NCBI GenBank assembly: GCA_035236585.1 | Contig: CP141136.1 | Span: 52,283,136-52,347,135, forward strand | DNA from: Warburgia ugandensis | Lineage: Eukaryota > Streptophyta > Magnoliopsida > Canellales > Canellaceae | Reading direction: 5' to 3' | Length of the DNA stretch: 64,000 bases | Shown here: in pieces, positions 4,630 to 57,620 of the stretch | Numbering within the stretch: position 1 is the stretch's first letter | Layout of the letters: each line of letters begins with the position of its first letter | The notes under the pieces: generated by a model | The model's input: the letters and a program-made list of their open reading frames with translations, nothing else | Database searches by the model: none | What the model was told of the DNA's origin: nothing | Translations under genes and position numbers: made by a program

Positions 4630-7600
4630 ATGATTGGAAGAACTCTCCTCAACCTCTCCTTCTCCACCAACCTCTTCTCCCACACTCTCTTCTCTGCAAC
4701 AAAAGCCTTCCCAAGAATCAGACCAAAGGTTTTTCCAGGGTTTAAGATTCAATCCTTATCCACTGCCGTAACTACCTCAACCCTCGAAGTAGAACAACCA
4801 CTACAATCCAGTCGTCATTCTATCCTTCTAGAGAAACTCAGAACTCGACATTTGAAAGATGCTGCCAAAACCCCACCAACACCACCAAGCCGGACAAAAC
4901 CTCTTGCTGTGGCTGATCAAGTGGAAGCTGAAAAAGGCTCCACTAAAGGTTCAAAGAGGAATCCACTAAGGGTTGCTTCTAGTTTTGGGGAATTGGGTTT
5001 GAGTGAGGAGGTAATGAGTGCTATTGAGGAGTTGGGTATTTCTGTTCCTACTGAAATTCAGTCTTTGGGAATCCCTGCTGTGCTTCAAGGGAAGAGTGTG
5101 GTTTTGGGCTCTCATACTGGATCTGGAAAGACTTTAGCTTATGTGTTGCCTTTGGTTCAGGTAACTATTGTTTACTCAATTTGTTGTTATCAATTGTTTT
5201 CTTTTCTTTTTTTTTGGTGTTTCGTCTTAGAGTTTGTATGCTTTTCTGGATTTGAATGATACTGTTTCTCGGGTTTCGTTGTGCTTAGTATGCTCGTTTC
5301 GTTTTCTGGAAATTTGGTTGCTATCTGTTTGTTTACTTTTCAGGTCTTGGTTTTGCTTACTTTGATTGCTTGTTGCGGGATTTGTTTAAGTATTTATCGG
5401 ATTTTGATTCGAACTTCTGATTATAATTAATCACTTTCACTCTTCCCTCATTTTTCAAAGTTGATTGTTGGGATGTAGTCTACATTTTTGCCTCAAATTT
5501 GTATTGCTTTTGTGATGGGAGAATATATCAAATGTGATAGTTCAGTTGTTAAAATTTGTATGTATCTTTCTGTTTTTTTCTTTGTCATTCATTTTAACAG
5601 TATAGTTCCCTTGTTTTCTTTGTGACTAAGATCGATAAAATTGGTTCACGCTCTTATTTTAGTCAAACTAATGGTGCACTCATATCTCTCTCTATGTATA
5701 TTTAATTTGATGTTTTACCTGCTGTGGTGCATATTATTAAAATATGGTAGTCAAATGAAATGGAGATGTTCTTTTTTTGCTCATTTGGGTTTTGTCAATT
5801 GTTGATTGAGTCTTTCAAAGGATTACGTAAATCTGCTATTTCTCTACCTATTGCAATTGAATGGAATGAAGATGCCCAGTTTGTTTTTTCATGGTTTAAG
5901 CATTTGCAGAGTGAATCTTTGTAAGGGATTAATTGAGTTTCTTTCTTTTGTAGCTATTGAGACGTGATGAATCATTGATGGGCATGCTAATGAAACCTAG
6001 ACGTCCTCGAGCAGTTGTGTTGTGTCCTACAAGGGAGCTATGTGAACAGGTTTTTGCTCACGCTCTTAAATAGATAATGGAATTAACTATGAGTAGTAGG
6101 TTGTGTTAACTGTTTGAGATCCTTCTAGGTGTTTCATGTGGCAAAGTCTGTAAGTCATCATGCACGATTCCGCTCTATCATGGTAAGTGGAGGTAGCCGT
6201 TTAAGGCCTCAAGAAGATTCGTTGAACGTCCCAATTGACATGGTGGTTGGAACTCCTGGCAGAGTTCTTCAACATATTGAAGAGGGAAATATGGTATATG
6301 GTGACATTAAGTACCTGGTGGGTCTTAAACTATTTATATATTTATAGAGTTTTGTGACTCTTGCAACTGCTAATTTCATGTTCAGCAAATCTAATAGAGT
6401 AATTTCTGTCTTAGGTCTTGGATGAAGCTGATACCATGTTTGATCGTGGTTTTGGCCCTGATATCCGTAAATTTCTTGGCCCGTTAAAGAATCGTGTATC
6501 AAAACCCGGTGATCAAGGATTTCAAACCGTTTTGGTCACTGCAACCATGACCAAGGTAATCCAACATGCATTTTTGTCTAGAAAGAAATCTAAGATGTGC
6601 ATATATTAACTTGCATCAAAAAATTCAGTTGCGTATAGCTAGCACTTTGAATGTTCAACCATCATCCACTCAATAATCATTTACTCTTGTATTGAAAAAG
6701 CTAGAGTGACTAGAGTGGTATATGTTGTGTTCCTTTTATATTTTCTTGGCATATGTTCTGTTCCTTTATATTTTCTTTTTGGAGCCGGTAATTGGAAGGA
6801 AGCCTAGAATTCCTTCTGATTTCATTGTCTCATAATATACCAATCAGTGGATCCCAATTTGAAAGTAAAACCCATCTTATGTCTTCATGTTTCATATTCT
6901 TAGAGATTGACATTTCCATACTTTTTGTTATTTGTTTATTTATTGAATGATGGAAAAATTCAATATAGAAGGGGAGTGTGACATCCCGGGTTTTTATAAC
7001 ACTTTTTCATAAATCTTTTGCTTTGGGGGGCCCCAATACTTTTATAAAACTGTTCAAAACCAAATAGCGGAAGAATAACTTTGAAAAGAATACCTTAAAA
7101 ATCCCGAGTGTCTCTTTCTTTTTATTTATTTATTAAAAACAATGATTTTCAGAGGAATGAACATCACATTCCTACCAAAAATCCGACAGAGTCTCCCCTA
7201 TATTTCGGACATCATGCATTTAACGCATACAATGTGACACCTGATAATCATCATGTACATATAAATATCCATGATAGAGACTCCATCTCCCTCCAAATAC
7301 TAACATACACATTTCCATTTAATTTAAATAAATGAAACATTTTGGTAATGCCAAAAAGGCTAGGTAATTGACATGTATACCCAGGATTACTCCAGTCATA
7401 GCCATTCGTGTCAAACGGTAATAAATACACATTCACATGTCCATTTCTAATAGTCATAAAACAATTTTTATTACAGAAGAGTTGTAAGAACCTTCAGAAA
7501 TCTTTACTTATTCCTCACCTTTACTCAAAATAGCTTCCTTGTAGCTTCCAAGTCAAAACTATGTGCCTTTCCCTTTGCTGTAGTCTTTCGAACCTAAGAT

Positions 7601-8343
7601 ATCTTAGCAAGCCTTCGCTTGTGTAGGTAGTTTCATCATCAACACACAAGTTTATGCAGTTCTAACTTTAAAAGGAACAATTTATCATATTTTGTGAAAT
7701 TGTGTCATTTGATGCCAAATAAGTAGTATAATATATTCTGAAATTCATACTATGCCATTTCAAATAGTTTCCATTTCCAATCAGTTTGAATCGTCAATTT
7801 AACATCCATGCTTACTGTTTCCAAATAATGATAATAACCTTAGTAAAACATTTAGATGATATGGAAGATAGTCACGACTCTTCACATGCTTCAAAACCAA
7901 TAGAGAAATGCATTTAAACCAGGAAATGCTTAAATGTAAATAAAGAGTATTTCAACCAGTGTATACGCACACCTATATACACACACACACACACACACAC
8001 ATACTCTAAATCTCATCAAGATTTTACGAGTATAAAGCCACTCAAATCCGGCCACCTGCTATTGGTCATGAGTACTCATTATTGACCTGAAATACCATGG
8101 TGTCCTGCACCTACGCTATTGCGCAATATACATATAAACTCAAAAATAATGGAACCTCTGTGCGACGGACAAGAACCAATCAAGTCTGTGGCTATCAAGC
8201 CGATACCAAACGGATAGACTCCTTTGCACCGTGTTCATGGAAAACACAGCACACAAGCCATGACCTGTCCATGATGACATGAGCTTGCATTAGGCCCCTC
8301 TGGCCAAGTGTCCACCATACATATATATATATATATATCCACC

Positions 8344-8375
<32 letters not shown>

Positions 8376-11300
8376 TTTTAGAAGAAAGAGGATGATCAGT
8401 CCTCAATCTTCCTAGCACAGAGTTCACCGGCCCCAATATGTCCGTCATAATATAATAATAATACTAGGCAGCATCCCATGCCTATAAAAATGATAAAACC
8501 ATATAATTTCATACATTGGTTTTTCAATCTGATAGTAAAGTAAACCTGTCATTTTAAATAAATTGCATGAATATACCCTTCTGATACTTGCATAAACTAA
8601 AAAGATCAAAATCTCAAGTTTCAAGTAAATTCCAAGCATGTTGATGTCCAAACTACCTACCTCCCTTTTTGTGCTCCACAATTTTGCTATATCCTTCCTT
8701 TAATCACTTATCGATCACCTAACCAAATCAAAATTTGAATTCATTGTCAATACAAATCCAAATGTTCATAATTTCAAGTAAATTTACACATTTTCAAATC
8801 AAGATAGCTAGTTCATCCATCCATTCCCAATTTTTGTCATATCCTAGCTAATTTAAGGTCCTAAGATTCATCGGTGATGTCTGATCATCAATCAAACATC
8901 AAGGATTTACTGTGCAAACAGTACTCGATCGGACGGCCAAGATTGTCCGATCGATTTCCTGCCTAGATCTGTCAATCTAGTGTGATTTAGACTACATCAA
9001 TTCTTTAATTTTTCATCCCTACCCTTAGATTAGGGATTAGACGGTTGGATCATCCCTAATTATAGATCTAGGTTAAAAATGCATAAAATTTGCAAACTAC
9101 CAAGATTCAAGAGATGGGTATCTTAGATCTTACCCTTAAGGAGTGTCTTCAACCTCCATTCGTCACCGAAGAATGAGATTGCCGTTGATTTTTCCGTCGC
9201 TGGCAAATCCCGTCGTGGGTACTGTTTTCCCCCTTTTTCCCCACCAAAACTTGCTAAATCAACGAGAAACTCTAGGGCTTTTGCTCGTGGTAGCGAGGGG
9301 AAGACAATGAACGGCATCGATCGTCGATCAATGATGCTGTTCACTCTGTCTTTTTTGGCGACCGTCAACTCTTCTCCACCGTCGATCTCCTCCTCCCTTA
9401 GTTGATGGGAGAAATGGAGGGTGGAGGATGGGTAGTTTCCTCCCCTCCTTTCTCCTCTTTCCTTCTCCCCCACTCTCTCTTCCTCTTTTCTTCTCCCCCA
9501 CTCTCTCTTCCTCTTTTCTTCTTCCTCTCTCAATCGCATGGAGAATAGACCGTGAGGTCTGTTCTTTTTTTTTCTTTAAGTGGGGGGGGTGTCCGTATCA
9601 ATTATGGCCCCCTCTAGTTTAAGTCTTTTTTTCTTTTTTTTTTCAAAGTTCTTACAGGGAGCCTTGGCGCAATGGTTGGGTTATCACTGTGCGACTTGGA
9701 GGTCATGGTTTTGAGGCATGAAAACAGCCTCTTGCAAAATGCAGGGTAAGGCTGTGTATTATTGACCCTTTGTGATCTGCCCCTTCCTTGGACCCTGTGT
9801 ATGTGGGAGCTTCGTGCTCCAAGCTGCCCTTTATGGAAAAATTCGATATATACTGAAACAATGTGTGCTATTATTAGTTTTTGTTACTTGTAAAGTAAGC
9901 TGGGTTCATGAGATCCATGTTCATTCATGATCTCTCCTTTTTTTTTTTTTCTTAAAAGAAAAATCTATTGAACATTTGTTCTAGTTGATATTATTAAAAA
10001 AATGTTATCTGCCTCAACATTTTCAAGTCCATATTTGTCACCTTGGCGCAACAGTAAAGTAGTCGTCATGTGACCTTGAGGTCACAGGTTCAAGGCGTGG
10101 AAACAGTTTTTTGCAAAAATGCAAGGTCAGGCTGTGTACTATAGACCCTTGTGGTTTGTCCCTTCTCTGGACCCTGCATAGGTGGGAGCTTTGTGCACCG
10201 GGGCTGCCTTTTATTTGCCCCCTGTACTTTTTTGTAATGTCAGTCTACCTATCCTTGTATGATCCCATAGTGGTCGTCTAATGACAGGAGGAAAAAAATT
10301 TGATAATTCTATTTCTTAGTCTGACTATGGTATCAAGAAGTTAATTTTCTGCTGGGTTCACTGTGATAAAAAATATTATTTCTCAATTTCCCTCAGAAGG
10401 AGGAAGTCCACTGACAAAGCTTGGAGCATTGAACTGCATTGAACTGTTACTGAATTTCCTTCTTCTATGGAAATATTATTTCATGAAACTGAATTTTTGC
10501 AATATGCTTTTGCATTCTTCCATAATGTTTTTGACTTTACAAAGTATTGTAGGCAGTGCAAAAGCTGGTTGATGAGGAATTCCAGGGGATAGTTCATTTG
10601 CGTACTTCAACGTTGCACAAGAAGATTGCATCTGCTCGGCATGATTTTATCAAACTCTCTGGGTCTGAGAACAAGTTGGAGGCACTGCTTCAGGTAAATT
10701 ATTGATACCATTCAACCTTCTAACTTGGTGAGATTCTTTCTTCTTGTGTGTATTTGAGGGCATGCTTGAAGATAAGGATACTCTGTGTCAATTTTCGTAA
10801 TTGAAGAAACTTAACCTTGTCAAGTGGGAGTTTGTCCATTATAAATTTGTGCATCATAACAGAAAGTAGCAAGTTTTCTTTTCACGGATCTTCTTATGCA
10901 CTTGAGGGTGTAGTGGGATGTGTTTCCACCCTATTCAACAGGATCTGGTAATTCCATAGAAAAAACACATGGTAATTCAATTATAAGGATGACAGGGGGT
11001 GGGGCAGTGAAAATGTGGACTGACATGGGGCAGGGTGGGGTTAGACAAAAACCGAAGACCTGCCCTGTGCAACATATATCACCTTTAGGTCTAAAATGCC
11101 CTTATATTTATGTTTTAGAATTATGATGGGTATGGCAAAATTGTAATTATAACTTTTATGTCTAAAATATTCTTGTATATAATTTTTTAAAATATGGCAT
11201 GGATGGTAACATCGTAATTGTAAGAGTGGGTGGAACTGGCAGCCAGAAAAACCTCCCGACGGGCCCCATTGCCATCTCTATGAATCATTTTCTTCCAATC

Positions 11301-17510: not shown

Positions 17511-17528
17511 TCGCTTTGGAGATAAGCT

Positions 17529-18833: not shown

Positions 18834-18848
18834 TCAACCCAATCAAAA

Positions 18849-19959: not shown

Positions 19960-20400
19960 GTTATATACAACGGTTTCTCAGTACCCGTCCTATATTTTAA
20001 CTAATATAGGATAGTTAATAAATAGTTGTCCTATATTTTATATAGGACGGCTAAAAAATACCCGTCCTATATTTTATAATTTATATAGGATGGTTAATAA
20101 ATACCCGTCCTATATCTTATACGTTATAACAATCCTATATTTTAACTGATATAGGACATTAATAAATACCCATCCTATATTTTTATACGTTATATAGGAC
20201 ATTTAATAAATACCTATCCTATATTTTATACGTTATATAAGACGGATAATAAATACACATCCTATATTACTTAATAACAAAACCATTACTCAGAATAGTC
20301 CTATAATCTTATAGAAATAGAGGATCAGTTTTTACTAACTGTCACTTATGATCTTCAATATAAGACCATTTTTTAGTAACCGTCCTTTATTGTACAATTT
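19960..20400. repeat. Array 1 of a ~42-bp palindromic repeat
   Basis: At least six tandem units of 41-66 bp. Each begins ACCCGTCCTATATTTTA, passes through TATATAGGACGG and ends TTAATAAAT, so each unit is itself an inverted repeat (GTCCTATAT / ATATAGGAC). Diverged units continue to about 20400. Confidence 0.85.
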
Positions 20401-21888
20401 TTTAATCTTTACACTTTACCTGCGCATTCTATTTTGTTATTGGTTTCTGTTTGTTACCTGTACATTCTTCCTGTAGTTATATTTATCAAAGTATATCAAT
20501 CAACAGTATATGAGTGTGACAAAATAACACATTCACTGTAATGCCCGAGCAATTTACACTATTTTTAACGAAAATTGGACATTCTGTGGAAAATGGACTG
20601 TGTTGAATGTTTGACTTTATTTAAAATAATAAACAAAGGAATTTGTGAAGGAACTTATACCATTAAATTCTACTTGAAAAATGGAATCCAACGCCTCAAA
20701 AATCACCCAAAACGGAGTTCCTATGAAGAAGTTACAGCCATTTAAAGATAGGGGTATTTCTGGAAATTAAACAGAAAAACGAAAAAGGACAAAAAACGCA
20801 GGGGGCCGTTTTGATAACGGCACCCCCCTGTCGTCTTCAACCTCTAGACCCTCCCAGAAACCTTCGATCCCGATTTTTCTAGAGGGATCTGCCACTGCCA
20901 ATGGCGGCACCGCCATAGCTGGTCTATAAAAACCCCATCTCCCCTCTCCAAAAAACCACGTTTTCTGGTGATTTTCTAGTCATTTGAGACTGGGGTTTCC
21001 GGCAAAAACCGGAAACCCGTTCCTCTATGTTTCTGGCAACGGCCAGGCCAAGATTGGCCGGCCATTCCCATCTCCCCATTCCCCTCTCTTCGCTTGTCCT
21101 GGCCTTGCACAACATGGGGAGTTTCCACTTCATTGAGTTTTTCCGGCAACAAGGGTTTGGACAGGCAGGAAGAGCACCATCTTCGGCTGCAAGGTAAGCC
21201 GTCCTTCCTTCTTTTCCTTTCCATTTGCTTCCCCCATGCCAGATCCATGCCAGATTTGGTCCTTTCCTGTCGTTTTCAACTAGGTTGTTGGCCGGAAAAA
21301 CACCCCACGAAGGCTTAGGCCGGACCTGCACGAGCCAGGCGTCCCAAGGACGCCAAGCACCACCTGCACTTGGGACTGGGTCCCTGGGATGGGTTCCAGG
21401 TGTACGACAGTGCGTACACTGCCCCAGGTACGGCCTTCAGGTGCGCGCGCGACATGGGGCACGGGTCCTGGCTCGACCAGGGTGCATGGGGTGCCCTGGG
21501 AGCTGAGACGCGCTGTGACGACCCGGGTTTTTCAACCCTATATATATGTAAAACTTTTCGAAAGGTGGGGCCCCATTTTTTTTTTCAAAAAAACCAAAAA
21601 CAGTGAAAATAATTTAAATCGAATTTCATTTTCAGAAAAATCCCGAGGTCAGCCATTGACGCAAAACAAGATTTTATTTTTTTATTTTTATTTTCCAAGT
21701 AAACATGTTTAAAATAGATTTGCTATTCCAGGATCATCCAGTCATCAGCCACATTCCCATAACAGTATAATCAAATCCAATAACATATATACATACACAG
21801 TCCATGTGAAATTAGAACATACCTCTAAATGAGACTTCTCAATCACTATTCTTCTAACTCCTCATGTGTCCTGTCTTTCTTTAATATC

Positions 21889-21931
21889 TGAGGCATTGCA
21901 ACAAACGCAATGCCTCAGCAAGCAAGGCTTG
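21889..21931 (+). other. Twin stem-loop motif in LTR D
   Basis: An 11-bp perfect stem TGAGGCATTGC / GCAATGCCTCA (21889-21899 and 21907-21917, 7-nt loop) is followed after one base by CAAGC-aag-GCTTG (21919-21931) and then GTAGG. Confidence 0.75.
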
Positions 21932-23635
21932 GTAGGTACATAGACATTTAATGTATATCAATGGAACAAAATCGAATAATTGTATTGATACAGTGAGTAA
22001 AGTAATTTTTTACAAGAATATAATTATTTTAAGCAATGCTAATGAAATCTCAAAACATCATATACGATAAAACATGCATCTCATGGATTTAAAACATGAT
22101 ATAATCTCATGTAAATGAGCATATAATAACAACAAGGCACCCTAAGGTATATGGGTCCCACGAGTGTCCCATACACTCGTATCACAGATCATGAGTACTC
22201 ATATCAAACCTCTGAGTGTCGTCACACCCAGGCATACCATCACATCTTCATGCTCATCATGCATGCACACCAAATAAGAGTATGGATCGTCATGCCGCAG
22301 TGGCAACCCTCCATGGGTCTCAACCACCGCCGCTCCCCGTCGACACCATAACGGGAGACTTAGCGTCCGTCCCCATGGACAGGCCCGGACCGGTAGTGTG
22401 GACTATCCATGTTACCAACCCCTACCAAATGCCATCTACGGGCAGGTGTCTATCATATCAAAATCTCATCACATCACAAATCTCGGAGGGTGGGTGGCCG
22501 GCCCTCTCCCTCCTAGCATGACATCCACCGGGTGAGAGCACCCGTCATAAAACTCAAAATACAAAAATCATATATGTCGAAACCAAGAGCACTTGTGGCT
22601 CGCAATCCCCAAGGCACGCTCCTCATCCTGGAGTTAGCCTCTAAAAAGACCAGCCACCAAGCCTCTACTTTTCTTTCTCATAAAAACTCATCAATTTCAA
22701 TGATGCAATAAGGAAAGATAATTTTCTAATTGTGTATAAGTAGATAATCTCAATCTCATGAAACCATCGGTCATAGTCCATTCAATACATGATTGAAATC
22801 AAACAGCAATCATAGCATAAAACTCTAAATCTCACAAAATCATCGATTAATAATAAGTGCAATTTAAATCACCATCAATCATAATGCCATGATAATACAA
22901 GGTTTTAAAATCAAAACGAAACATTAAATGTCATCACCTACCTCAATTGTCGTTACTTAGCTCATGTCCCTCCTTCAGTCGAGTCCGAGAATACCTTGGT
23001 AAAGTCCTGAATGACGTTCAAACATAAGAGCTAGACGTTATTTCTAGGTTCACAGGGTAAGGTTAGATCTATATGATTTGTTGGTTTCTAGGGGTTACTC
23101 TCTAATATTTTTAGGTTGATCTATACCTAAGAATGTCTTGCATTTTATTGTATAATTGGGTCCGTGTCAAAATTACGGACGCAACGGTCCTTTTGGCTTG
23201 TCAAGCGGAGTTATATAGGCTCCGAAATTGGAATTTTCAAGATCGCGCCTTAATGGGCGACCCAATTGTAGTGCCTAGGGTCCTGCGCGCCACGGTTCTA
23301 GAATGCGCGCTCTACGGTTTCTAGTATACGCGTGCACCCTGGTTGCACCGCAACCAGGTTGGGTCATGTACGCACGTCCGAATGGTGTGCTAGGGTGTGC
23401 ACTCTTGACAGCATTGCGTGGACGCATCTTAGGCGTAGCTACGGCGTGCTTTGGCTCCTAGGACATCCCATGAGTCCTGGTCGAGCCAAGAAAACTATTT
23501 GCATGCAAAGCGTGCGCAAGGACAGCCCCCAGGGGGCTTGGTACAGGTGTGTGTGTCAAGCTAGGCGCCCCTTGGACCGCGCCATGCACCCAGGACGTCC
23601 GCACCCCTGGGACGCTCATGCGCCCCTGGGAGGTG

Positions 23636-23638
<3 letters not shown>

Positions 23639-23719
<81 letters not shown>
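23639..23719. repeat. (CT)n microsatellite in LTR D
   Basis: About 40 uninterrupted CT units. They generate artificial Ser-Leu open frames on the plus strand and Arg-Glu frames on the minus strand. Confidence 0.98.
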
Positions 23720-23721
<2 letters not shown>

Positions 23722-26086
23722 ACGGGGTTTCACCCGTCTGGTTTTCCTCCCCGAGGACTGGTGATTTCCGGTCGGAAAATTCCCAGATCCGATGAGGATC
23801 TGGGCTGGGAATGAGGCGGAAAGGAGGGGATGGTCTGGGAAGCCTGGAACGACACCCTGGTCGTAGGCCTAGGGTTCTGTAACGAACCCATCTTCCCTAA
23901 TGGGTTCTCCGGCCAGGAGACGCCATATCCGGCCGGATTATGAGGGAAAATGAAGAGAAAGAAGAAGGCAAGAGAAAGGAGTAGGGTGGGGAGGAGACTG
24001 GTACCTGGGGAGCCCTCTATGCTGCCTGATTTTGGTCTTGATCGTGGCTGCAAACCCTTGTGGCCAGATCTGTTTTTGGGAGCAATTTGGAGAGGAGAAA
24101 GCTTGATTTGGAAGAGGGGGAGTGGGGGATTTTATAGAAAGAGTAAGTCGGTGCTGCCAATGGCGATGCCGCCATTTCCCCTGGCACCGCCTTGCAGAGG
24201 CGGTGCTGGGATTTTTTTGGAAAAAAAATCGGGAGAAGGAAGAAGATGGGGTGCCGTTATCAAAACGGCCCCCTGCGTTTTCTGCGTTTTTCGTTTTTAA
24301 TTTAAATTACAAAAATACCCCTATCTTTAAACGGCCATAACTTCTTCATATGGACTCCGTTTTGGGTGATTTTGGTCTTGTTGGATTCCTTTTTCCGAGA
24401 CGCACCTAATGGTACCATTCTCAGGACCAAATTTCTGGGTTCAGTCAGGGTGAATAGTGAAATGACCAAAATACCCTTATCTCCAAAAAGTGATCTTTTT
24501 ATTGCTGACTTGGGATTTCAATGTTACAAAATTGGAGTCATTACACGCGCCATGCTACAAAGTGTGTCTGTGCGATGATGCGTGTCATAGTGCGTCGCTT
24601 AGGCATGCTTGTGCACATACGGACACTACCCCAGGTGCGGCCTTCGGGTACGTGCGCAACATGGGGCACGGGTCCTAGCTCGACCAGGATGCACAGGGTG
24701 CCCTGAGAGCTGAGACGCGCCATGCTACAAGGTGCGTCCGTGTGATGATGCACGTCATAGCGCGTCACTTGAGCATGCATGTGCGTGTGCAAAACACGGT
24801 CTCTAGCACGGCCTTAGGCGCACATGCACGTGAGGCGATCGTGGTTCAACCAAGATGCATGGGTGTCCTGGGAACCGGGACACGCTGACCCAATAAGACT
24901 TGAAAGCTAAGATTAAAGGACAATTTACAGAGTGAGCTATGGACTAGTAGGTCCACATCATAGGATCCAGCCTAACAATGAATTAGGCAAGGACTAGGGA
25001 CCCAATAGACAGGGCTAGCGGTCTAATGTCTAAATAGACTCAAAATAATTAGGACTCCTTGTATCCATTTATACCCAGGAGTTAATGAATGAGACCCAGG
25101 GACGGGTTGAAGTGATAAAGGACGCGACTCCAGGAGACTTTGAGGTAGGTGCTCTATCGCTACTAGACTTTTTAAAAGAGCCATGATTGTTTTAAGAATA
25201 CATGTTTTAAGGATATGACTTGTTTAACATGACTTAATTCAACATACATATGATAAATGCTTTATGCATATATATGTTTTACAAATAATTGCATATACAT
25301 AATGCATAGATATGTTTTGCAAACAATTGAATACATTGTATGATTTGTGAGCATTGAGTTTTTGAAAGATTGCATGTCCTTGAGGGTTACCAAAAGACGC
25401 TGGAGTGCCCAAAAGACGCTGGGTAGGCAGTTGTGAGGGCCAGGCAGTTGTGAGGGACCCAAAGAGGACATGTTTTGAAAAATATATTGCGCATATATTG
25501 CCAAGACATGTGCTACATGCATAGATTGCATGATAAGTGTAGCCTTGACCGATGAGGGCGGGCCAGAGAGAGCTGACCAGGCTTCTAGGCTGGCAGGCTT
25601 CTAGGCTGGGTTATGACTTTGAATGCAATACTAGCATGAGTAGATTTTATGCATTGCATGCATGTTTTGCAACCGATTGCATAAATTGCATGATTTACGA
25701 CGAAGAAGTGTCATAGGCCCCGTTGAGGCTATGACCGAGTGTCCTCAGGTACCTGGGGACCACACGGCGGCGAGGTCGTGGGCATAGTTGGACCCTATGG
25801 TTTCGTGGACTTATTTGCATTGCATATGGCATGATATGAGGTTGGTCGACCATACCATACCAGATATCCATGAGTTGGATTCAGCTGAGCATCTTATGCA
25901 TATCATTATGTTTATGATATATGATACTTTTGACTTGGACTATGCTATTCTTGAAGTCGTTAGTATTCTGGTTTGACAGTGGTTTTTAATATCAATATTG
26001 AACATGATTGTTCGAACATGCACATGTTTTTTAAGAGCACATGATTTTAAACATAGCATGCAAAACTAGTAGTGATAGACTCTTAC

Positions 26087-26105
26087 TGAGTATAGTATAT
26101 ACTCA
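26087..26105 (-). other. Stem-loop in LTR C
   Basis: An 8-bp perfect stem TGAGTATA / TATACTCA with a 3-nt loop, 400 bp from the TG end of this minus-strand LTR. It corresponds in position to the first stem-loop of the other LTRs. The second small stem-loop is not visible here. Confidence 0.6.
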
Positions 26106-26510
26106 CCCTATCCTTAACATTTTTCAGGATAGTTCCACTCATAAATAGAAGACGTCTCAGGAGATATTAGTTCTATGAGCAAGTGAATAAATAAAGGAGA
26201 CAACTATACATGTGAGTAAACTCTCTACCCTTTGGACATGTATTTGTATTTATTTACAATTGGGCTGTGTGTTGTGACTGGATAGACCTGAGGAAAAACA
26301 TTTATGATTTATAAAGTTTTTCAAAAACTACTTTGAGTATTGTGAAAGCAAATGACACTCGAGGTTTTCAAAATAAGTTTAAAACAAAAGATTTTCCGCT
26401 GCATTGCATGGTTTTTTATAAACTGGTTTTCAAATAGGGATGCATCCCGCCTTAAGAAATTAGATATTGCATTTAAAATTGAATGGGAAAACCAGGGTCG
26501 TTACATTCAC

Positions 26511-28977: not shown

Positions 28978-30865
28978 TGTGACAACTCGGGTTTTTATAA
29001 CACATTTTGTAATACATTTTGTAAAGACAGGGCCCTTAGTAGTGACATTTTTTTTCAAAACAAAGCAACAAAAATTCTTTTCTTTAGAATTTGTTTTGTA
29101 AAACCCAAGTTACTACTTCATACATAACATAAGTAGAGTTTTGTACAAGATAAAATTTCATTGAAAGAATATACTTTTATTAAACTTCAGGATCCATCCA
29201 ATAGTTCACAGTACACATCACATTATATCCTTACAATGCTTGTCCAAATACATAATCCAAATTACAAAGCTCTAAATACAATACTAGCTCTAAATATAAT
29301 GTTTCAAGGGATATACCTTGATTACTTATTCTTCAATAGTTCTTTAAGTCTTAAGCTCCTAAGTCTCTTTCTCTGTATCTGAGATATTGTAAACATTCTA
29401 ACATTTATAATATCTCAGCAAGCTATGCTTGGTAGGGGATAAAAATATAATATATTGACAGTATAATCTCAATATTCAATTATACCATGATTCATTATAT
29501 CATATACACATTCATAGACCATTATCATTTATATGGACATCTCATTACTTTGTCATTTGTATTCATCTTTATACATATATATTGTATACGGACAAATTCG
29601 TTAAAATTGTGAAAATAGTCAATAATTATTCCCATAATAAGCTGATCAACTCCTTTCACTATAGTAGATTAATATGTCAACCAGTTACTATAGTGGGAAT
29701 TTCCCTTCTTGGGAAAATTTTTGGTAATATACAATTACCTGGCATTTCATCATGCCATCACTTAAGGCATTTTACTTTGCCAATTTCATATGCCTCATAA
29801 TGCAAAATAATCAAGGACTACTATGCTTGCAGTCTGATTCGTACAACGCACCCAAATAACTGCTCTATAATCCACTTATACCATTCTCAGTGGAAATTAC
29901 AATATCCATGTCTGTATGGGGGGACCATGGCTGTCACAGTGGTGGCCTTTCCATAATTGCCCCACCCGACTTTCAGCCTTGCTTAGGCTTGGTATTTAAT
30001 ATCATCAAGTTTCAGAGAGCGTGTGCCCAAACCCTTATAACTCTCCTAGCATAGCATCCCCAGGCCTACGCCTATTTAAAACAAAACTACAAGCCTCCAT
30101 GCTTGTATGTAAAGCAATACTTATACATATCAGACTATCTGTCTATTTATCTAGAGCTGGAATATTTTCTACTCCCCTATTCACTTAGGGTTGTTCTAAA
30201 TTATCGACTTTAACTATTTTCTACTTATTTTCCTCATCATTTGGTTGGATCATATTTCATTTTGAGGTATTTACCACAATATATTGGTATTGTACATGTC
30301 AATACTTCAAAACATAAGATTATGTATTAAATATGTATCTTCATGTAAAGGCATTCTTAAAATCCACTTACCACAATAAGGTATTCTTACTCATTGAAAT
30401 CTGCCATAGAAAAATGCTAGGTAATCCAATTCTATAAAATCCACCTACCACATTGTGGGCCCCACCTTAAGTGTGAAATGACTATTTTGGCCTTTTATTC
30501 CCAAAAATATAGAAAAATAGGCACTAATTGTCCGAACTCAGAATTTAGTGTACTTAGAGTAATTTTGATCAATTTTCTCAGTACATTCCAAATATTCATG
30601 TTTAATTCTCTGTTATGAGTAAAATTACCATTTTACCCTTTTATTTATAAAAGTAGGGATTTTTCATTTTAACTCGGAATTGAACGTACTTAATGTCATT
30701 TCGATCAGTTTTTCGAGTACATCCATAATTTCTAGTTTTTAAATCATGGTTTAATATCTATAAATAGAAAATTTTCAATAACCTAATATTCTAGCTCAGA
30801 ATTTTTTTGAAACATTAAACTTTATTGATCTTTAATAATTTACACAAAATTTTGGGGTTATTACA
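28978..30865 (+). mobile_element. Solo LTR B
   Basis: Starts TGTGACAACTCGGG and ends GGGGTTATTACA; 1888 bp. The flanking 5-mers CGCTT (28973-28977) and TGTTT (30866-30870) agree at three of five bases, and both differences are C/T. That suits an older insertion than A, C, D and E. It belongs to the same superfamily of LTRs by its ends and by its twin stem-loop, and has no coding region. Confidence 0.72.
29380..29431 (+). other. Twin stem-loop motif in LTR B
   Basis: A 14-bp stem TGAGATATTGTAAA / TTTATAATATCTCA (29380-29393 and 29404-29417), with one G-T pair, is followed by CAAGC-tat-GCTTG and GTAGG. Confidence 0.7.
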
Positions 30866-32545: not shown

Positions 32546-34735
<2,190 letters not shown>

Positions 34736-35002: not shown

Positions 35003-35509
35003 GTAGATGCATATCGCAGTTGCAGCTTGCAGCCATGCAGATGAAGAATATTGTTAATCTTAACCTTATCTTGTGAGATGTACTATAATAAGAGTGTTAC
35101 ATAACAAAAATAGGGCAAAAAATGGTGAAATATAAATTCCAAGAGTAGAACCGGGTTACCTAACCTCTTTCTATTGCCTCTTATCATTTTTATTATGTTT
35201 GTCTTCTTCTTCAGTTCTTCTCTCCCATATCTCTCTTCTTCTTCTTGCTTGAGGTATCGCAGGCACTCAGGTAGCAGTCGGTTTCTGGGTTTCTCCCTTG
35301 CTCTCACTCTTTAGTCTATCTCTTCTTCTTCTTCTCTCTCCTTGGTCGACTAGCACGATTTCTCTCTCCCTATCTCTCCTTCTCCTTCTTACTCTTTTGG
35401 TCAGAGTTTTTGCCCTGGTGCTAATTGAGGGAGGTTTAGTAGTTTGGACTTCGAAGAAATTTCGATATGGTGTGAAAGAGGGGAGAAAGGTTTATAAAGA
35501 AAAAGAAAT
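35003..35509 (-). other. 5' untranslated/promoter region of the CACTA-like gene
   Basis: CT-rich on the plus strand (GA-rich leader on the minus strand), lying between the N-terminal exon and the subterminal repeat array. TATA-like 'tttataaag' near 35490. No separate gene is supported. Confidence 0.4.
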
Positions 35510-35850
35510 ATAGGACGGTTTTAAGAGAACATACCTATATTACCGAAACAATATAGGACTGTTCTATGAAACACGTCCTATATTACCAAAGAAATATCAA
35601 CGGTTATAAATAAACAATCCTTTATTAGTAATCATCATAGGACAGTTCAGAAATAACTGTCCTATATTTAACAAATGTCATATTCACAATATAGGACAGT
35701 TACCCAATAACCGTCTTATACTTATCCAAAATATAGGACCGTTATTACATACACATCTTATATGTATAGAATATAAAGGACGGTTTTGTATTAACCGTCC
35801 TATAGTTTCTAAATATAAAAAGGTTATTCCGTAACCTTCCTATATATATC
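35510..35850. repeat. Array 2 of the ~42-bp palindromic repeat
   Basis: About seven units of TATAGGAC(G/A/T)GTT...AACCGTCCTATATT, more diverged than array 1. Confidence 0.8.
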
Positions 35851-37052
35851 TTAAGAATCAATACAATTTAGTAATGCTGATGTTATCTAGATCACATTTA
35901 TGAAATATGAATGGCATGGAATTCAATTCCATTTGTAGTTGGCAATATATGTAGATGTACAATGATACATATAGACAATATATTAATATATTGCTAAAAG
36001 TAGACATGTACATGTCAATACATAGTGAAGCCTTAGAGTAAGAGTCTCAGTCTTAGACTCTGTCACTGTCAATCTTAATTTAGTTAATGTTTAGAGATTT
36101 GATTACATATTTACATCGATAATTTGAATTTGGCTCTCCTCTTGAAATTTCTTCTTATCATAACTTTTTGATCTTAAGTTATAAACTATAAAGTGTAACA
36201 TTATCTATATCTCAAGTCTAAAGGTCAAACTTATTTCTAATATCCAAATTTGATAATTGTTACATTCATCATAAACATTTTGTAGAGACAATGACATTAT
36301 CTATATATGACCTAAAATTGTTTAGCATCTAAAGGCCAAGTATCATAGTGCAAACTCTGTACACTGTTAGCAGTAGTGCACAATGAAATTGATAGTAGCT
36401 CTTTATTGCTTAATGCTTAAAGCATAAAGAATTAAAGATAAAGGCTAATTGTGACACCCCGAGTTTTTATCAACAATAAATAACAATTTATAAAAACAGT
36501 CAGGATCCCTGTTTTAAAAACATTAATTTTTAAAGTGACAAAAAATAAAGCTCCAATAAAAACATGTATTTCAAAATCCCGGGAGTCATACAACCACAAA
36601 ACCACGGATTTAACAGTGAAATGAAATACCATTTCTACCAAAAATCTGGCAGTCTCCTCTATATTTTGGACAATTACACATGACAAGTCAATACAAAATA
36701 ACCTGATAAACTCAACATATGACACAACACTTGGAGACTCAGTCTCCATGTCCATCCATTCAAATCGAATACAATTTTCAATAAAAATGTATACTCCAAT
36801 AGTGTATAAGAAAATCAAGTCATGACCAATATACTTAGGGTCCCTCCATACAACCATCACATCCAACACGATTTATATCCTCACATCCAAGTCACATTGC
36901 AATTTATATTAAAGTACAGTCCACAAACAATGATTAAAGCGAGGTCTTGAACAAACCTTATCATCTCTAAAATGTCTTCAATACTTCACTAGGAACTGTA
37001 ATCACTTTTTCTTGCTCTATCAGTGCATCATCTTGGTGCAACTCTCTATATC

Positions 37053-37095
37053 TGAGGCATCACAAACAAAGCACTGCCTCAGCAAACTATGCTTG
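37053..37095 (+). other. Twin stem-loop motif in LTR E
   Basis: Stem TGAGGCA / TGCCTCA (37053-37059 and 37075-37081) is followed by CAAAC-tat-GCTTG and then tGTAGG. The stem is shorter and the second stem-loop has one mismatch. Confidence 0.6.
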
Positions 37096-37451
37096 TGTAG
37101 GTGATTCACATTCAATAACAAATGCAATGAAATCATATGGGGTAGAGTATCAAGATCATGGTAAATCTCATAAGATAAAACATGTACAAGGCACGTCAAA
37201 TAGTCAGACATCCATGCTGGATAACACATGAGAGTTTGACAAATCGATATCAAGTCAAACCATCATGACATGCAAGGCATGAGATAAATACATGGATATA
37301 TGTCCATTGAAATAATGAAAATCTATGTCCATAGAATAATGTAATGCATGTCAAAAATCAACAGAACATCATGCATAGTCAAACCCTATGAGTGTCTCAA
37401 CTACACTCATGGCAACGTGGGCCTAACTCTTTGTACTTTCTGCTTTCACCC

Positions 37452-40449: not shown

Positions 40450-41060
40450 ACTAACCGTCCTTTATGATTATAAAAATAATGGACAATTATACAGTAACCG
40501 TCCTTTATGTTTACAAATATAGGACGGTTCAAAAATACCCATCCTATATTGTGTAAATACATAAGAAAGGTATCATACAACCATCCGTCCTTTATGTTAA
40601 TACTATATAGGATGTTTAACAAATATAGGACTGTTCGTAAATAACGGTCCTATATTATGTAAATATAATAATATATGACAGGCTTCAAATAACTGTCCTA
40701 TATTTTGAAAATATATAGGACGAATATCATGTAACCGTCCTATATTGTGAGTTGAATGCAAACTTCAGTGATGAGTCCACTCCAGACCTCATGTGACGTT
40801 AACAAATAATTTATATATAGGACGAGTCTGACATAACCATCCTATATTTAACAAAATATATAGGACGGTTCATTACTCGTCCTATATCTTTTTCCAAATT
40901 ATATGATGGTTATCTTTTAATCTTCCTATATTTATAATTAAAATAGGGTAGTTATTCATTAACTGTCTTATACTTTTCAATAATATAAGACGGTTGAGGA
41001 ATACCCATCCTATATTTAGTGATATTATAGGATTGTTGTCGTTGAACCGTCTTGTATCAG
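40450..41060. repeat. Array 3 of the ~42-bp palindromic repeat
   Basis: About a dozen diverged units of AACCGTCCT(A/T)TAT and TATAGGACGGTT words in alternating orientation, with a non-repeat gap near 40755-40805. It marks the 5' end of the CACTA-like element, next to the hAT gene. Confidence 0.8.
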
Positions 41061-52000: not shown

Positions 52001-52348
52001 CCCCTTGAATCTGTGACCTTAAGGTCACACGACGACATCTTTACCGTTGCGCTAGGCTCCCCTTCAACGATCAGAACAATGGAGACAAAAACTGGCGGTG
52101 GATCTAAAGGTGGAAAATGAATAGACTAGAGAATATGAAGTATTATCATACCTGTTTATCAGCGGAATCAAGCATTCTATGTTCATTTTTCTTTACAAGC
52201 CTAGAACTATTTATTGCTTGAAAACAGAGAAGAAATGTATATCCTTTTACTTCTTTTCCAAGGAGTGGGATGGTTGAACATGTTCTGGACATGCAGTCTG
52301 CTTTAGATTCTAGATCGGTCCCATCTTCCCCCTACCCCTCCCACAAGC

Positions 52349-52423
<75 letters not shown>

Positions 52424-52810: not shown

Positions 52811-53346
52811 ATAACCGGCAACAATTCAAAGCTCAGTAGACAGGTTAGTTCCATCAAATTAGAGATCTGTGTTTATTAAGCCCTATTATATGGTGAATCT
52901 GCAGGAAAGAAAATGCAGCTTCTTCTTCTTGATTGACTTCCAGAATAATAGAATAGAAGGCTTATGTTCATTACTAGATCTGCTGGTAAGTTAGGGCAAT
53001 CTGGTCCCAGGCTTATATCTTTGTTGGCTGCAACCTGATAGTTGCCCCAGTTTTGTGATCCTGTACATTTTGTTTATTTGTTTATTGTTTACTTCTGATC
53101 TATACATTTTGTAGATTTCATTTATTTGTTTATTATTCTGCAGCTATTTCTGTTACCTTTTCTCACTGTCTATATGTAGGCTCTTAGTCAGCCTTCTTCC
53201 ATGGACACAAACATCTTACCGGTGTGTTTTATACAATCTTCACCCCATCAAAACGTTTTTGGTTGCTCTGTTAGATATTCTACATTCATGTGTATCCCGT
53301 CAATTGAGCTTGGAGAATGGTTTTATGTACAAAATATTTCCATTCA
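52811..53346. other. SG1 3' flank
   Basis: Presumed SG1 3' untranslated region and T-rich intergenic sequence. No other feature recognised. Confidence 0.4.
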
Positions 53347-53364
53347 TGGATGTTGTTGCTGTTT

Positions 53365-53542
53365 GAAGGGGAGCCTTGGCGCAACGGTAAAAGTTGTCGT
53401 CATGTGACCTTGAGGTCACGGGTTCAATGCATGGAATCAGCCTCTTGCAAAATGCAAGGTAAGGCTGCCTACTATAGGCCCTTGTGGTCCACCCCTTCCC
53501 TGGACCCTGCATAGGCGGGAGTTTCGTGCACTGGGGCTGCCC
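53365..53542 (+). mobile_element. Au SINE downstream of SG1, well preserved
   Basis: GGGGAGCCTTGGCGCAACGG to 'ctggggctgccc'. Target duplications TGGATGTTGTT(G/A)CTGTTT at 53347-53364 and 53543-53560 match at 17 of 18 bases. One of the best preserved copies in the window. Confidence 0.95.
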
Positions 53543-53704
53543 TGGATGTTGTTACTGTTTCTGCTGCATGGCTACTTTATTATGTTTGAACTCTGGACCT
53601 CCAACATTGGTTATGCTAGTTGTGATATAGTATTCCCTAGCTCTGTTTGATGTGCCTTGGCTGTAGCAGACTTATAGCCTTGCTTATTTGCAGAAATACA
53701 CACC

Positions 53705-53965
53705 ATGATTGGAAGGTCTAGAGTTGAGGTCAGGCAATATGTTTCCAATCTGGATTCTAAATTTGAGAATGCTCTCTGGTCATCAATTGAAATGGCGGCC
53801 ACAATGGCAACTTCATATTGGTCAGCAAGAATGCTTTGGTCATTTCATAAAATCAGTGAAGGTTTTGGTTCTTTTTTGATGAGTTGTAGCCTGGATGCAG
53901 TCATGTTACGACAGAAATGGCTCCTATCAAAGGTATGGCCCCAATTCGAACAATTGATGATGTAA
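53705..53965 (+). CDS. Unrecognised 86-codon open frame
   Basis: Encodes 86 aa starting MIGRSRVEVRQ, with balanced composition and no low-complexity runs, between SG1 and the small membrane-protein gene. I recognise no family, and there is no clear promoter or splice context. It could be an exon of an unannotated transcript or chance. Low support. Confidence 0.15.
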   Translation: MIGRSRVEVRQYVSNLDSKFENALWSSIEMAATMATSYWSARMLWSFHKISEGFGSFLMSCSLDAVMLRQKWLLSKVWPQFEQLMM

Positions 53966-54192
53966 GACGATGACCTCCTAAAGATGCTTTTGATGAAGTG
54001 AAAATTGATGTAGTCTGCCTTTAACTCTTGAATCGATGAAAACACCTACAAATATGCCAACTGTTCTTTTTTGAAAGTTAGAGACACTCATGCAGAGTCG
54101 CCAACCCTGGTCACGGAGGCAAGAGAAGATTCCTTGCGCCACATTATTTCTGTCTTTGCAAGTTACATCCATGACGGGTGATTACAATTATT

Positions 54193-54576
54193 TCAAGAAA
54201 CTGTGATATGATGAGTTGCCGGAGTAATGAGATTTCCGGCAGCATCATAAGCTATGATGCCGGAGTAGTCAGGGAGCTGGCATTTCTCACCCATGAGTAT
54301 GTTCTTTTGCCACACACAGACCCCATGTGCATCCTCTTCCCCTGGCTGAATTTGATGAACACCCAATTTGGTTGTCAATATCCTTGGTTCAGTGTTTACA
54401 ATGACTGGGTCTGAGGATGTATATCGACCTGTAGTTATGAGCCTACGCCATTGCCTGCCATGGGAAGCACACATGGTTAATGCAATCATACACAGGAAGA
54501 AGGTTGCTGCGCCTAGGCTTGCTTGAGCCTCGCTCGTTCCTGTAATCGGTTGTGCCAGGAACAGCTGCCGTGCCAT
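54193..54576 (-). CDS. Small plant membrane protein of unknown function
   Basis: A single-exon frame of 127 aa. A hydrophobic segment at about residues 20-38 (ASLGAATFFLCMIALTMCA) is followed by a basic stretch (HGRQWRRL) and then a polar region. The C-terminal block at 87-115 (VCVWQKNILMGEKCQ, then PDYSGIIAYDAAGN) matches, as I recall it, a conserved ending of small uncharacterised plant proteins ('WQKNILMG.KC...FSG.I.YD..GN'). This conserved tail and a well-placed TATA box support a real gene. Likely a single-pass membrane or secreted protein. I know no function. It is convergent with SG1. Confidence 0.7.
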   Translation of the reverse strand: MARQLFLAQPITGTSEAQASLGAATFFLCMIALTMCASHGRQWRRLITTGRYTSSDPVIVNTEPRILTTKLGVHQIQPGEEDAHGVCVWQKNILMGEKCQLPDYSGIIAYDAAGNLITPATHHITVS

Positions 54577-54617
54577 TTTGGGTATTGGTATGTGTCTTAG
54601 GTGGATAAATCTAGTCT

Positions 54618-54625
54618 TATTTATA
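54618..54625 (-). promoter_or_regulatory. TATA box of the small membrane-protein gene
   Basis: TATAAATA on the minus strand, about 42 bases upstream of the ATG at 54576, in the context CACTATAAATAAGAC. The spacing implies a very short leader. Confidence 0.5.
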
Positions 54626-54786
54626 GTGGTTGTTTGTGAAGGATTTGTTGGTAGTGCAGAGGTTGCGTTGGTGGTTTTGGTGCTCCAACTCCTCTTTTAA
54701 CAGTTTTGATTAGTCAACGTGGATCATAGATATGACTTGGGGATGAGTACAAGTGATGCCTCGAGTTGTGCAAAATAGAACCGGCA

Positions 54787-56135
54787 AGGATGAAAATCCA
54801 TGCATACCCATTTGGTTGTTTAAAATTTGTGGACAAAATGGTTTGAATCAATCTGATCCGTCAAGTTGACATTTGCATGGATATATCTATGGATATTCGT
54901 TTAAAAGTTTAAAAGTGCAATTTTGAAAAATTAAATTGGAAAATGATATGGAGTTTGGATGTTGACTTCTTGTGAAAAATCTAAATCATTAATTTTGTTT
55001 GATGTCTCAAAAATAGGCGATCCATTAAAATTGTTGACATTTTTATGGTCCAAACCACTTCTACTTTTCTAAAAAAGGAAAGAAATCAGTGGTTCTAATT
55101 TTCAACTTTCTTAAGCTGCAAGAATCTATTGCTCTTGAAATGTGGTGCTTAAGTTATTTAAGGCATTTTGAACAAGATTAACGACTAAGATCTTTAAAAA
55201 GAAGTCAACATAAGTAATTCTACATGATGAATAATATGCAAATTAGTGATCCATACCTGGGTCGGATACACATTGGGGTCTTTTGATCGAGGACCATGTG
55301 GATACAAAATTTCAATTCTTACTCGCCCAGATCAGATTGAATTCAATGTGGCATCAGTGCAAAATTAATATAGCAGGGACTACCTGGTTGATGGTACAAA
55401 CCATTCATTGGTAGGCTAGTTTTTAGGCAGGCTATACCCCAAATTAAGATAATCCTGACGTACTAGAAGATAGTCGAGGGTTGTTGGTTTTCTGACTGTT
55501 ATTTTGGACTTTAGTTTGCCATTCTCTTTTGACCTCATGATAACTCGATTTTGAGAAGATCTGGTGTCTGGTCTATCCTAGATGGGTGCATCAGTTGCAG
55601 TGTTTGGACTCCCACATTGATTTTCCCCTAGAATGATGCCAAATGGACCCATCATTTTTACCTATCACTAATGAGTGTCGTAAAGCCGTCCAAATGGATA
55701 AAAATCTGTTCACATTCATTTGTTTGTTTGAAGATAAAACGGATCAAATCAATCCAATCCAATAAATTAGTAATCCACATGGATAACTACAGATATAAAT
55801 TAAATGATTATTTTGAGAAATTAAATTAGAAAATGATATTAATTGTGGATGATAACTTCTTTTAAAAAATTAATCTTGTTTAGTATCCCCAAAATAGGTT
55901 ACCCATGAAAAGTCGTTACATGTGGCTGATTTTAACTACTTGTTTTATTTCTCTGGAAAAAGAAAAATTAGTGGCTCTAACTTTCAACTTTTATAACTTT
56001 AGTTATCTAAGGTACTTTGAACAAGATCAGTTTAGATATTTCAAAAAAAGTCAACATCTAGAATTCTATATAACTTATGTGAGATAAACAGATAATCTTT
56101 AAGTCCATGATTTGCATTTAGGCTGGATTTAATCC
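54787..56135. repeat. Diverged direct duplication (two ~450-bp copies)
   Basis: Copy 1 at about 54787-55290 and copy 2 at about 55690-56135 share the same order of words: 'ggatgaaaatc/ggataaaaatc', 'gaaaaattaaattggaaaatgatat / gagaaattaaattagaaaatgatat' (split), 'ccaaaatagg'-like, 'ttctaattttcaactt / gctctaactttcaactt' and 'aagtcaacat'. Between them lies about 400 bp of unrelated sequence. This may be two copies of an unnamed transposon or a local duplication. Confidence 0.6.
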
Positions 56136-56291
56136 TCTCGTCCATTTTTCCAGAACTAGAGTCTCGGATGTCGTCACAATGCTGGGCCTTATAACCTTGT
56201 TGGAAGATCTTAGGCCCCTTATTCTAGAAAGAGAAACTATAACTAGAGAAGCTCCTATATGGAATATGATCCATTTGTTTAGATTTCTAAG

Positions 56292-56474
56292 AAAGGTGAG
56301 GCTTGGCACAATGGTAAAGTTGCTGTCACGTGACCTTGAGGTCATGGGTTCAAGATGTGAAAACATCCTTTTGCAAAAATGCAAGATAAGGCTGTGTACT
56401 ATAGACCCTTGTGGTCTACTCCTTCCTCAGACCCTGCATACGAGAGAGCTTTGTGCATCGGGGCTATCCTTTTG
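56292..56474 (+). mobile_element. Au SINE
   Basis: AGGTGAGGCTTGGCACAATGG to 'ggggctatccttt'. Target duplications TGTTTAGATTTCT(A/C)AG at 56276-56291 and 56475-56490 match at 15 of 16 bases. The body is more diverged than the flanks suggest. Confidence 0.92.
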
Positions 56475-56743
56475 TGTTTAGATTTCTCAGCCACATGTCA
56501 TGCTAATTGGATGAATTTATGTACTATGTTGTTAGAGTTGTAGTTGGAGTAGGCACTACCTTTTCCATCCACGTGATATTATTTGTAGAGCTAAATCATT
56601 CATCATGTTTGGAGTGGCTTAAGGAGGTTAGAGGTAAAATTTGATGACCAGATGATGCTTTTAGCTTATGTTTCATTGCATCAAAATTCATCACCATCCA
56701 ATTTTATTAATTTTTTGAGAGAGAATTCTAGTTTCAGCCCACC

Positions 56744-57620
56744 TATGACACCCCTATTTTTTATATAAATTTTATGCAAAATCTTTTTCAAATGTGGAGC
56801 CCCAAGTTTTGAAGATGCATTATGTGATGACATCGGTTTTTATAATGCAATTTAAAATAATAAGCTTTCACTTGCGAGATCGATTTCTATTTAAATAATA
56901 AAATTTTGAAATAAATTGTGTGAAAAATTCTTTTTATTTGCAATTCATTCATGAAAACCTTGAGTGCCATTATTTACTTCAAACAAATAGATAATGATCT
57001 AATCATTATTAATAAAGGAAACATGTCACATCAATTTGAAATATATCTAAAAATAGATACTTACTATTCCCAAGATTGTTAATCACGGCCCAAGTTAATA
57101 GTAATCACTTAAAGTCAATTTACATCAAATACTAAAATAATCACTATTAGTTCTAGAATATCTACAATTACACTTGTCTTTACTTTTTCTCACTTGATCG
57201 TAGCACTAAAACTTTCTAAAGCTTCTTCTAATCTTGCTTGGCCTGATCTGTAAAAATATATTTGGTTGAGTATTTTTCATACCCAGTAGGTGATCTGATA
57301 CTATTAATTTGAAAACACAATATATAACATACATAACTTTAAGAAGGATTTTTCAGGTAATAAAATCATACAACCATCTTATGTTAACATGGGTATTCAT
57401 AAATAAACCATTTGAACATTTTATATATTCAAGTGATAAAATTTTCAGCAAAATTAATCAACCAATAATATAAAGATTACTAAATTCCTTAAAGTAGTAA
57501 TTGATTGAACCAAATGCTAGAAATTCCAACCCTATGGCAATTATTATGCATATGGGTATCTCGGCGAATACATTAGTCGGCTAGTTACGAGTACTCGTCT
57601 AAGTGAAGAAAAGTCATAGT
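56744..57620 (+). mobile_element. LTR fragment F of the stem-loop LTR family
   Basis: Starts TATGACACCCC and follows LTR A closely over the first 75 bp ('gtggagccccaa' against 'ggggggccccaa'). A stem-loop TGAGTAT-ttttc-ATACCCA (57267-57285, one mismatch) followed by GTAGG lies 523 bp in. The 3' part is not seen; copia sequence begins at about 57625, so it was probably interrupted or joined there. An older, broken copy. Confidence 0.6.

Follow-up and report, generated by a model that had tools for sequence, protein, structure and literature searches.

A stem-loop motif with subfamily-specific arms in LTRs of Warburgia ugandensis, probably a cis-acting RNA structure of chromovirus leaders

Among the closest described systems are the RNAs of the Ty1 and Ty3 elements, for which a structured 5' end, a tRNA(iMet) primer and signals acting in cis have been reported (PMC11381356, PMC4974528), and where the in vitro dimerisation of Ty3 RNA is driven by a short palindrome at the 5' end (PMC11381356). 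Furthermore, leftover conservation of long R regions has been linked to stem-loops (Benachenhou 2013, PMC3601003), and ENE elements have been described as U-rich internal loops with G-C pairs on their flanks, the ENE of Evade lying between the ORF and the downstream LTR (PMC12501189). For plant LTR retrotransposons, on the other hand, signals for packaging and dimerisation seem to be little known, though such elements fill plant genomes. In the titles and the starts of abstracts listed we found no such signals and no description of the twin motif discussed below, which is no proof of its absence from print.

The window, as we call the whole stretch of DNA analysed here, comprises 64,000 nt of Warburgia ugandensis (GCA_035236585.1, contig CP141136.1, 52,283,136-52,347,135, forward strand). 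An earlier note on this stretch had claimed six stem-loops, in LTR-like elements A to F, together with a second stem-loop and GTAGG after the first one in A, B, D and E, and GTAGG after the stem of F; all of these are indeed present where it placed them (Table 1). A strict pattern (a stem of 7 bp or more beginning with TGAG, with GTARG no more than 25 nt after it) is matched in the window by B, C, D and E, as compared with a mean of 0.02 and a maximum of 1 match in 60 dinucleotide shuffles of the window. A is missed because it is a shortened copy, with approximately 20 inner bases gone (the full-length stem is found in 10 of 10 other aligned A-family copies, in some of them with mismatches), and F because of an A.C position on the strand read in the earlier note; in the sense strand, as defined below, this position is G.U and all 7 pairs form. 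Stem 1 of E has two inner mismatches. C carries GTAAG in the window, while its 20 family copies have, by eye, 16 GTAGG, 2 GTAAG and 2 TTAGG, and in C-type LTRs (L096-L115 and the window copy) stem 2 is replaced by a CTATCCT/AGGATAG hairpin that flanks stem 1 on its other side. Elsewhere in the window, short AT-rich inverted units (TATAGGACGG...CCGTCCTATA) are clustered in tandem-like arrays at 19989-20303, 35500-35799 and 40516-41051, and arrays with 8-base spacing, partly matched by the D-type LTR L069, lie at 33335-33710 and 23575-23769.

Table 1. Positions in the window of the LTRs, hairpins and palindromes discussed in the text; TSD denotes the target site duplication.
Feature	Sequence or detail	Position	Strand
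Element A, solo LTR	2,680 bp; TSD GGGAG at 6972-6976 and 9657-9661	6977..9656	(-) sense
A twin hairpin	shortened stem 1 CTAAG/CTTAG; stem 2 CAAGC/GCTTG; GTAGG (sense CCTAC)	7594..7627	(-)
A interrupted palindrome near U5 end	TTGGGGGGCCCCAA	7023..7036	(.)
Element D, solo LTR	TSD CGCGC at 21509-21513 and 24546-24550	21514..24545	(-)
D twin hairpin	TGAGGCATTGC/GCAATGCCTCA; CAAGC/GCTTG; GTAGG	21889..21936	(-)
D palindrome near U5 end	TGGGGCCCCA	21566..21575	(.)
C stem 1	TGAGTATA/TATACTCA	26087-26105, within 26087..26132	(+)
C other hairpin	CTATCCT/AGGATAG, 3' of stem 1 in sense	26108-26132	(+)
C palindrome near U5 end	GGGATGCATCCC	26437..26448	(.)
B twin hairpin	TGAGATATTGTAAA/TTTATAATATCTCA; CAAGC/GCTTG; GTAGG	29380..29436	(-)
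B palindrome near U5 end	AGGGCCCT	29029..29036	(.)
E twin hairpin	TGAGGCA/TGCCTCA; CAAAC/GCTTG (sense G.U); GTAGG	37053..37101	(-)
E imperfect palindrome near U5 end	CAGGATCCCTG	36501..36511	(.)
F single hairpin	TGAGTAT/ATACCCA (sense G.U), then GTAGG	57267..57290	(-)

The earlier note had measured the position of the motif from the TG end of the LTRs. While its value of 375-620 bp holds as a distance, what was taken for the TG end is the U5 end in reverse orientation, and the strand on which the motif was described is antisense. In particular, TGTGAC is immediately preceded in L072, L075 and others by GCTCTGATACCAAC, the reverse complement of the PBS TGGTATCAGAGC, which we take to match the plant initiator Met-tRNA, and the junction pattern GCTCTGATACCAN{0,6}TGTRAC gives 5,433 exact matches genome-wide as compared with 0 for a read-backwards control. 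In the element C10:18380685-18390629 (TSD CTCAT), a purine tract, as its reverse complement, is found at the other LTR end, and the minus strand codes for gag, a zinc knuckle, RT, RNase H and integrase, and for a chromodomain whose match barely exceeds the cut-off. PBS, TSD, purine tract and coding strand therefore all identify the TG end as the U5 end, and the relevant RNA as the reverse complement; the lesson is that with LTRs of this kind the two strands are easily confused. Within the 64-kb window, the PBS TGGTATCAGAGC has no match. LTR ends and TSDs were determined there for A and D, which, as solo LTRs, have the TG..CA ends and 5-bp TSDs of the class, PBS and PPT being present beside paired LTRs. 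A purine run, GAAGGGGAG at 6968-6976, was considered as a PPT before A and rejected, A being a minus-strand solo LTR with TSD GGGAG. The flanks of solo LTR D (21413-21513 and 24620-24720), which lie outside the LTR itself, repeat each other directly with 88% identity.

The hairpins lie approximately 350-660 nt upstream of the PBS, in the R/U5 part of the LTR. Along the sense LTR, stem 1 starts at 1,974 of 2,610 in the A-type L071 and at about 2,708 of 3,103 in the D-type L069. A TATA-like CTATAAAAA occurs at 392 of L069, and A has TA repeats only; provided that a TATA-like site such as that of L069 is used, the hairpin would fall within the transcribed R/U5 part, and it is the TATA-like sites upstream in D, and only there, on which its putative transcription rests. 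Another TATA-like sequence, TATAAAAACCCC, is seen upstream of the D insertion (21514) at window 20926 (+), in a D-like plus-strand stretch. A sequence strongly resembling a 5' splice site, AGGTAAGCC, is located at 679 of the sense LTR L069, ~290 nt past the TATA-like site, and also at window 21190 (+); the D-type leader may be spliced at this sequence, which is absent from window D. As for the motif itself, a splice site at the stem end was rejected, the sense-end AG being missing, by eye, in C, F, L032, L036 and L135, and so was GTAGG as a 5' splice site, being antisense.

What kind of element carries the motif? The A-type host element exhibits the chromovirus order of gag, RT, RNase H, integrase and C-terminal chromodomain (Pfam matches on separate pieces of L157/L158), with a Chromo match of 25.3 bits against a cut-off of 25.1, and may belong to a Tekay/Del-like lineage. 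In the one D-type element analysed, L156, the internal stretch has no Pfam match in three ORF pieces (67-109 aa) and no stop-to-stop frame over 109 aa; it shows none of the chromovirus coding domains, and D-type is tied to the chromovirus lineage by LTR and PBS only. That D keeps the PBS and the twin hairpin although it is coding-less argues for a cis-acting role in a shared replication cycle. Rfam covariance models gave 0 matches at gathering score in the 64-kb window.

The exact twin-hairpin core, CTCAGCAAGC-gap-GCTTG-gap-GTAGG, has 10,078 matches (5,119 + 4,959) in the 1.12-Gb genome and its reversed control 0, where it should be noted that the copies counted are related and that all counts come from one genome. 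A sample independent of the hairpin was taken from PBS junctions: 22 of the 25 TGTGAC places among the first 100 junctions listed, the other 3 being already in the set, and 18 TGTAAC places among the same 100, picked for varied spacers. The hairpin is kept in 19 of 22 TGTGAC LTRs (18 by pattern, L128 by hairpin scan) and in 5 of 18 TGTAAC LTRs (L138, L139, L140, L147 and L154, the TGTAACACCCCGG type, i.e. G). By eye, the three other TGTGAC loci have a shorter TGAGT/ACTCA form (L121), one lost arm (L125) or a degraded motif (L137), and in the other 13 TGTAAC loci the hairpin is not among the three best hairpins. Besides the window copy, 20 of 39 listed places were fetched for E-type and 20 of 39 for C-type, and 89 of 115 loci passed the score cut of the family alignment.

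Stem 1 comes in GC (TGAGGCATTGC), AT (TGAGATATTGTA(AA)) and TATA (TGAGTAT(A)) types, each with a matching partner arm. The earlier note had proposed that the arms change together under selection on RNA, and had suggested a covariation test. On the flank tree (62 rows), partner columns are more strongly associated than in simulations of independent evolution at pairs 5, 6, 7 and 11 (p 0.0005-0.0045) and at pairs 5-11 jointly (p 0.0005, the lowest value that 2,000 simulations can give); pair 8 is marginal (p 0.022 and 0.07), and pairs 2 and 10 show no covariation on this tree (p 0.86 and 0.83). The joint change thus goes beyond phylogenetic expectation, but it derives from only 3 switches of stem type on the tree, or 2 if the AT types form one clade, which is not rejected (p-AU 0.288). 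Since only these 2-3 switches are independent, the p-values lean on the independence of columns, and exchange of whole hairpins would give a similar signal. Chimeric GC/AT stems number 21 genome-wide against 7,248 pure AT stems (each found on both strands), the comparison being with pure AT only. The mean number of changes is 1.9 in stem columns (2.3 in pairs 5-11 alone) as opposed to 6.2 and 7.3 in the flanks, i.e. about 3 times fewer, in line with the proposed selection.

The make-up of the tree set bears on how these values should be read. From 102 U5-like starts, 17 without a pattern hairpin were left out, including window A, L121, L125, L128 and L137, and the set therefore leans towards intact hairpins; window F, with its damaged U5 end, is outside the set as well. 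Removing L026 and L039 from the 85 rows gave 83, and thinning 21 D-family copies gave 62. Rows were picked by the outer TGAG/TAAG and CTCA/CTTA/CCCA letters plus the tail, with pairs 5-11 unused in the choice, and for this reason the conservation of pairs 1-4 and of GTAGG does not count as independent evidence. For B and G, the loci (L009-L038) were retrieved with the 3' arm letters CTCAG, making CTCA, and not TAAG, a matter of choice.

Stem 2 hardly varies, only one lineage being clearly compensated, and therefore adds little covariation. In the same context, G-C is counted 10,078 times, sense G.U 271 times, sense A.C 179 times and a change on both sides 79 times, the latter compared with 4.8 expected under independence. 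By eye, 68 of these double changes have loops starting with TTG and look like one lineage; the others (8 with TAT/TATC, 3 of other kinds) hardly exceed the 4.8 expected.

On which strand does the motif act? G.U pairs form in the RNA of one strand where the opposite strand has A.C. At pair 2 of the tree set, 29 rows have sense G.U versus 3 with sense A.C (83 rows, mostly two families); in the family alignment, sense G.U at this pair is fixed in A (9 of 10 copies) and G (15 of 15), and F has it at pair 3. TGAG/CTTA stems show the sense G.U orientation in 98 of 100 among the matches listed, of 3,747, mostly from the G family as read from the loops. For the stem 2 counts of sense G.U and A.C given above, p is 1.7e-5 if copies are independent, which they are not. 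Scattered within-family changes are near even, as neutral decay predicts, with sense G.U:A.C ratios of 3:4 in B, 4:2 in D and 10:8 in E for stem 1, and of 1:1 in A, 0:1 in D and 3:3 in E for stem 2; within-copy decay was accordingly rejected as a strand test. The strand evidence for sense consists only of the family-fixed changes and the genome counts. Sense RNA folds with two adjacent hairpins in L072 (z -4.1), window D (-4.4) and window B (-5.4), while for E, C and F the advantage over shuffles is not clear (z -1.1, -1.4 and -1.4, respectively). Antisense L072 and L020 also fold (z -3.3 and -2.5), the sense fold being better by 2.9 and 2.6 kcal/mol, respectively. By eye, loops have UUUGUU-like letters in most twin types, and CCUAC lies ahead of the structure.

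Many subfamilies also have a loopless GC-rich palindrome ~45-76 nt from the U5 end, its letters differing among them (window copies, Table 1; L116-L155). In 15 hand-picked representatives the palindromes stand above shuffles (combined Fisher p 2e-4), as compared with 0.25 in a stretch at 180-260 nt that served as control; 9 other TGTAAC loci gave 0.56. No near-U5 palindrome was seen in L116, L117, L119 and L136, and only a short or broken one in L127, L129, L132, L135 and L137. L116 and L117 have a palindrome, TGAGCATGCTCA, inside the control stretch of 180-260 nt (p 0.006 and 0.013 versus shuffles). Because Ty3 RNA dimerises in vitro via a short 5' palindrome, the near-PBS palindrome as a candidate dimer site is a fair guess. 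A bolder idea, to which we give only a small chance, is a two-part U5 RNA signal, with the CCUAC-marked twin hairpin as a common packaging mark and the palindrome as a subfamily-specific dimerisation key. The keys, ~50 nt before the PBS, would be GGGGCCCC, GGGCCC, GGCGCGCC, GGGATCCC, GGGATGCATCCC and GGGATCGATCCC, all self-complementary. If this were true, like RNAs would pair and get packaged together, with one dimerisation key per subfamily, and the shared twin hairpin would be a packaging mark used by non-coding relatives as well.

It is our belief that the motif is probably an RNA structure, conserved and acting in cis, in the R/U5 leader that begins the genomic RNA of a chromodomain Ty3/gypsy (chromovirus) lineage. 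In sense order, it would consist of CCUAC, a 5-bp CAAGC/GCUUG hairpin in most subfamilies and, directly thereafter, a 7- to 18-bp UGAG...CUCA hairpin; it would be transcribed and act as RNA, its fold being kept by selection in source elements, while inserted copies would decay neutrally afterwards. Its job would likely be one for which non-coding relatives, too, depend on a signal in cis, such as packaging, dimerisation, or the start of reverse transcription and first strand transfer. Packaging, dimerisation or early reverse transcription is, in our opinion, a real possibility, if somewhat short of an even chance, and we place it ahead of 3'-end processing. The latter, in which a hairpin at or near the R end of the 3' LTR would place or hide the poly(A) site, we consider rather unlikely: the hairpin would lie in the LTR part common to both transcript ends if R spans it, and upstream sense sequence is U-rich, by eye, in several subfamilies, but AATAAA has no common distance, standing at ~-137 in most G and only at ~-1,230 in most D copies, and poly(A) and TATA sites at one distance from the hairpin are not common to the families. 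That said, the argument from AATAAA is weak, plant signals being loose.

Templated correction of quasi-palindromes is a known process, and one could argue that reverse transcriptase or replication, switching strands in imperfect palindromes, copies arm onto arm without selection. With several pairs changed at once in each of only 2-3 stem switches, such an origin is conceivable, yet it leaves unexplained the slow change of the stems, their survival in 19 of 22 LTRs (between-subfamily flank paths reaching ~1 change per site) and the fixed sense G.U pairs, and we regard it as improbable. The earlier note had allowed for RNA or cruciform structure, of which the RNA fold is favoured and a DNA cruciform is less likely because wobbles that are fixed within families read as G.U in sense. 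More generally, a function at the DNA level, be it a cruciform or a dyad-symmetric protein site in U5, seems very unlikely: the stems are palindromic in DNA too, and the near-PBS palindrome is loopless, but the fixed wobbles pair only in sense RNA, stems reach 18 bp and the loop letters are common to most twin types (by eye). Least likely of all is translation control by a short uORF ending at the UGA of the stem base. Leaders with a uORF and a stem are known from ribosome shunting in plant pararetroviruses, and among copies with a located stem base such a uORF is present in 7 of 7 A, 14 of 17 C and 27 of 27 D, but only in 0 of 9 B, 2 of 16 E and 0 of 15 G copies, and the LTR holds a further 14-24 ATGs downstream of the hairpin; a ribosome shunt was rejected on this uneven distribution.

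Returning to a cis-acting RNA structure of chromovirus leaders, the fold being kept while its letters change between subfamilies suggests that elements need the fold as such in order to copy themselves. Thousands of copies with subfamily-specific arms provide a natural alignment for finding packaging and dimerisation signals, and the motif could explain how coding-less relatives get carried along. As regards known systems, the uORF ending at the stem base of plant pararetrovirus shunt leaders is also found in A, C and D, being absent in B and G and rare in E. With ENE elements, the motif shares an RNA fold in plant LTR-element transcripts (PMC12501189), while an ENE triple helix was rejected, the predicted folds being plain hairpins without U-rich internal loops (by eye). 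The stem-loops of retrovirus R regions are, like the present ones, hairpins in R/U5, a likeness of form and place; the chromovirus model of Benachenhou 2013 (PMC3601003) covers Sushi only, mainly from Danio rerio LTRs. Finally, although Ty1 and Ty3 are yeast elements, for which the accounts cited above describe no twin hairpin of the present form, and although the structure proposed here comes from comparison only, their leaders and the present one would have in common a structured 5' end with cis-acting signals and a tRNA(iMet) primer.
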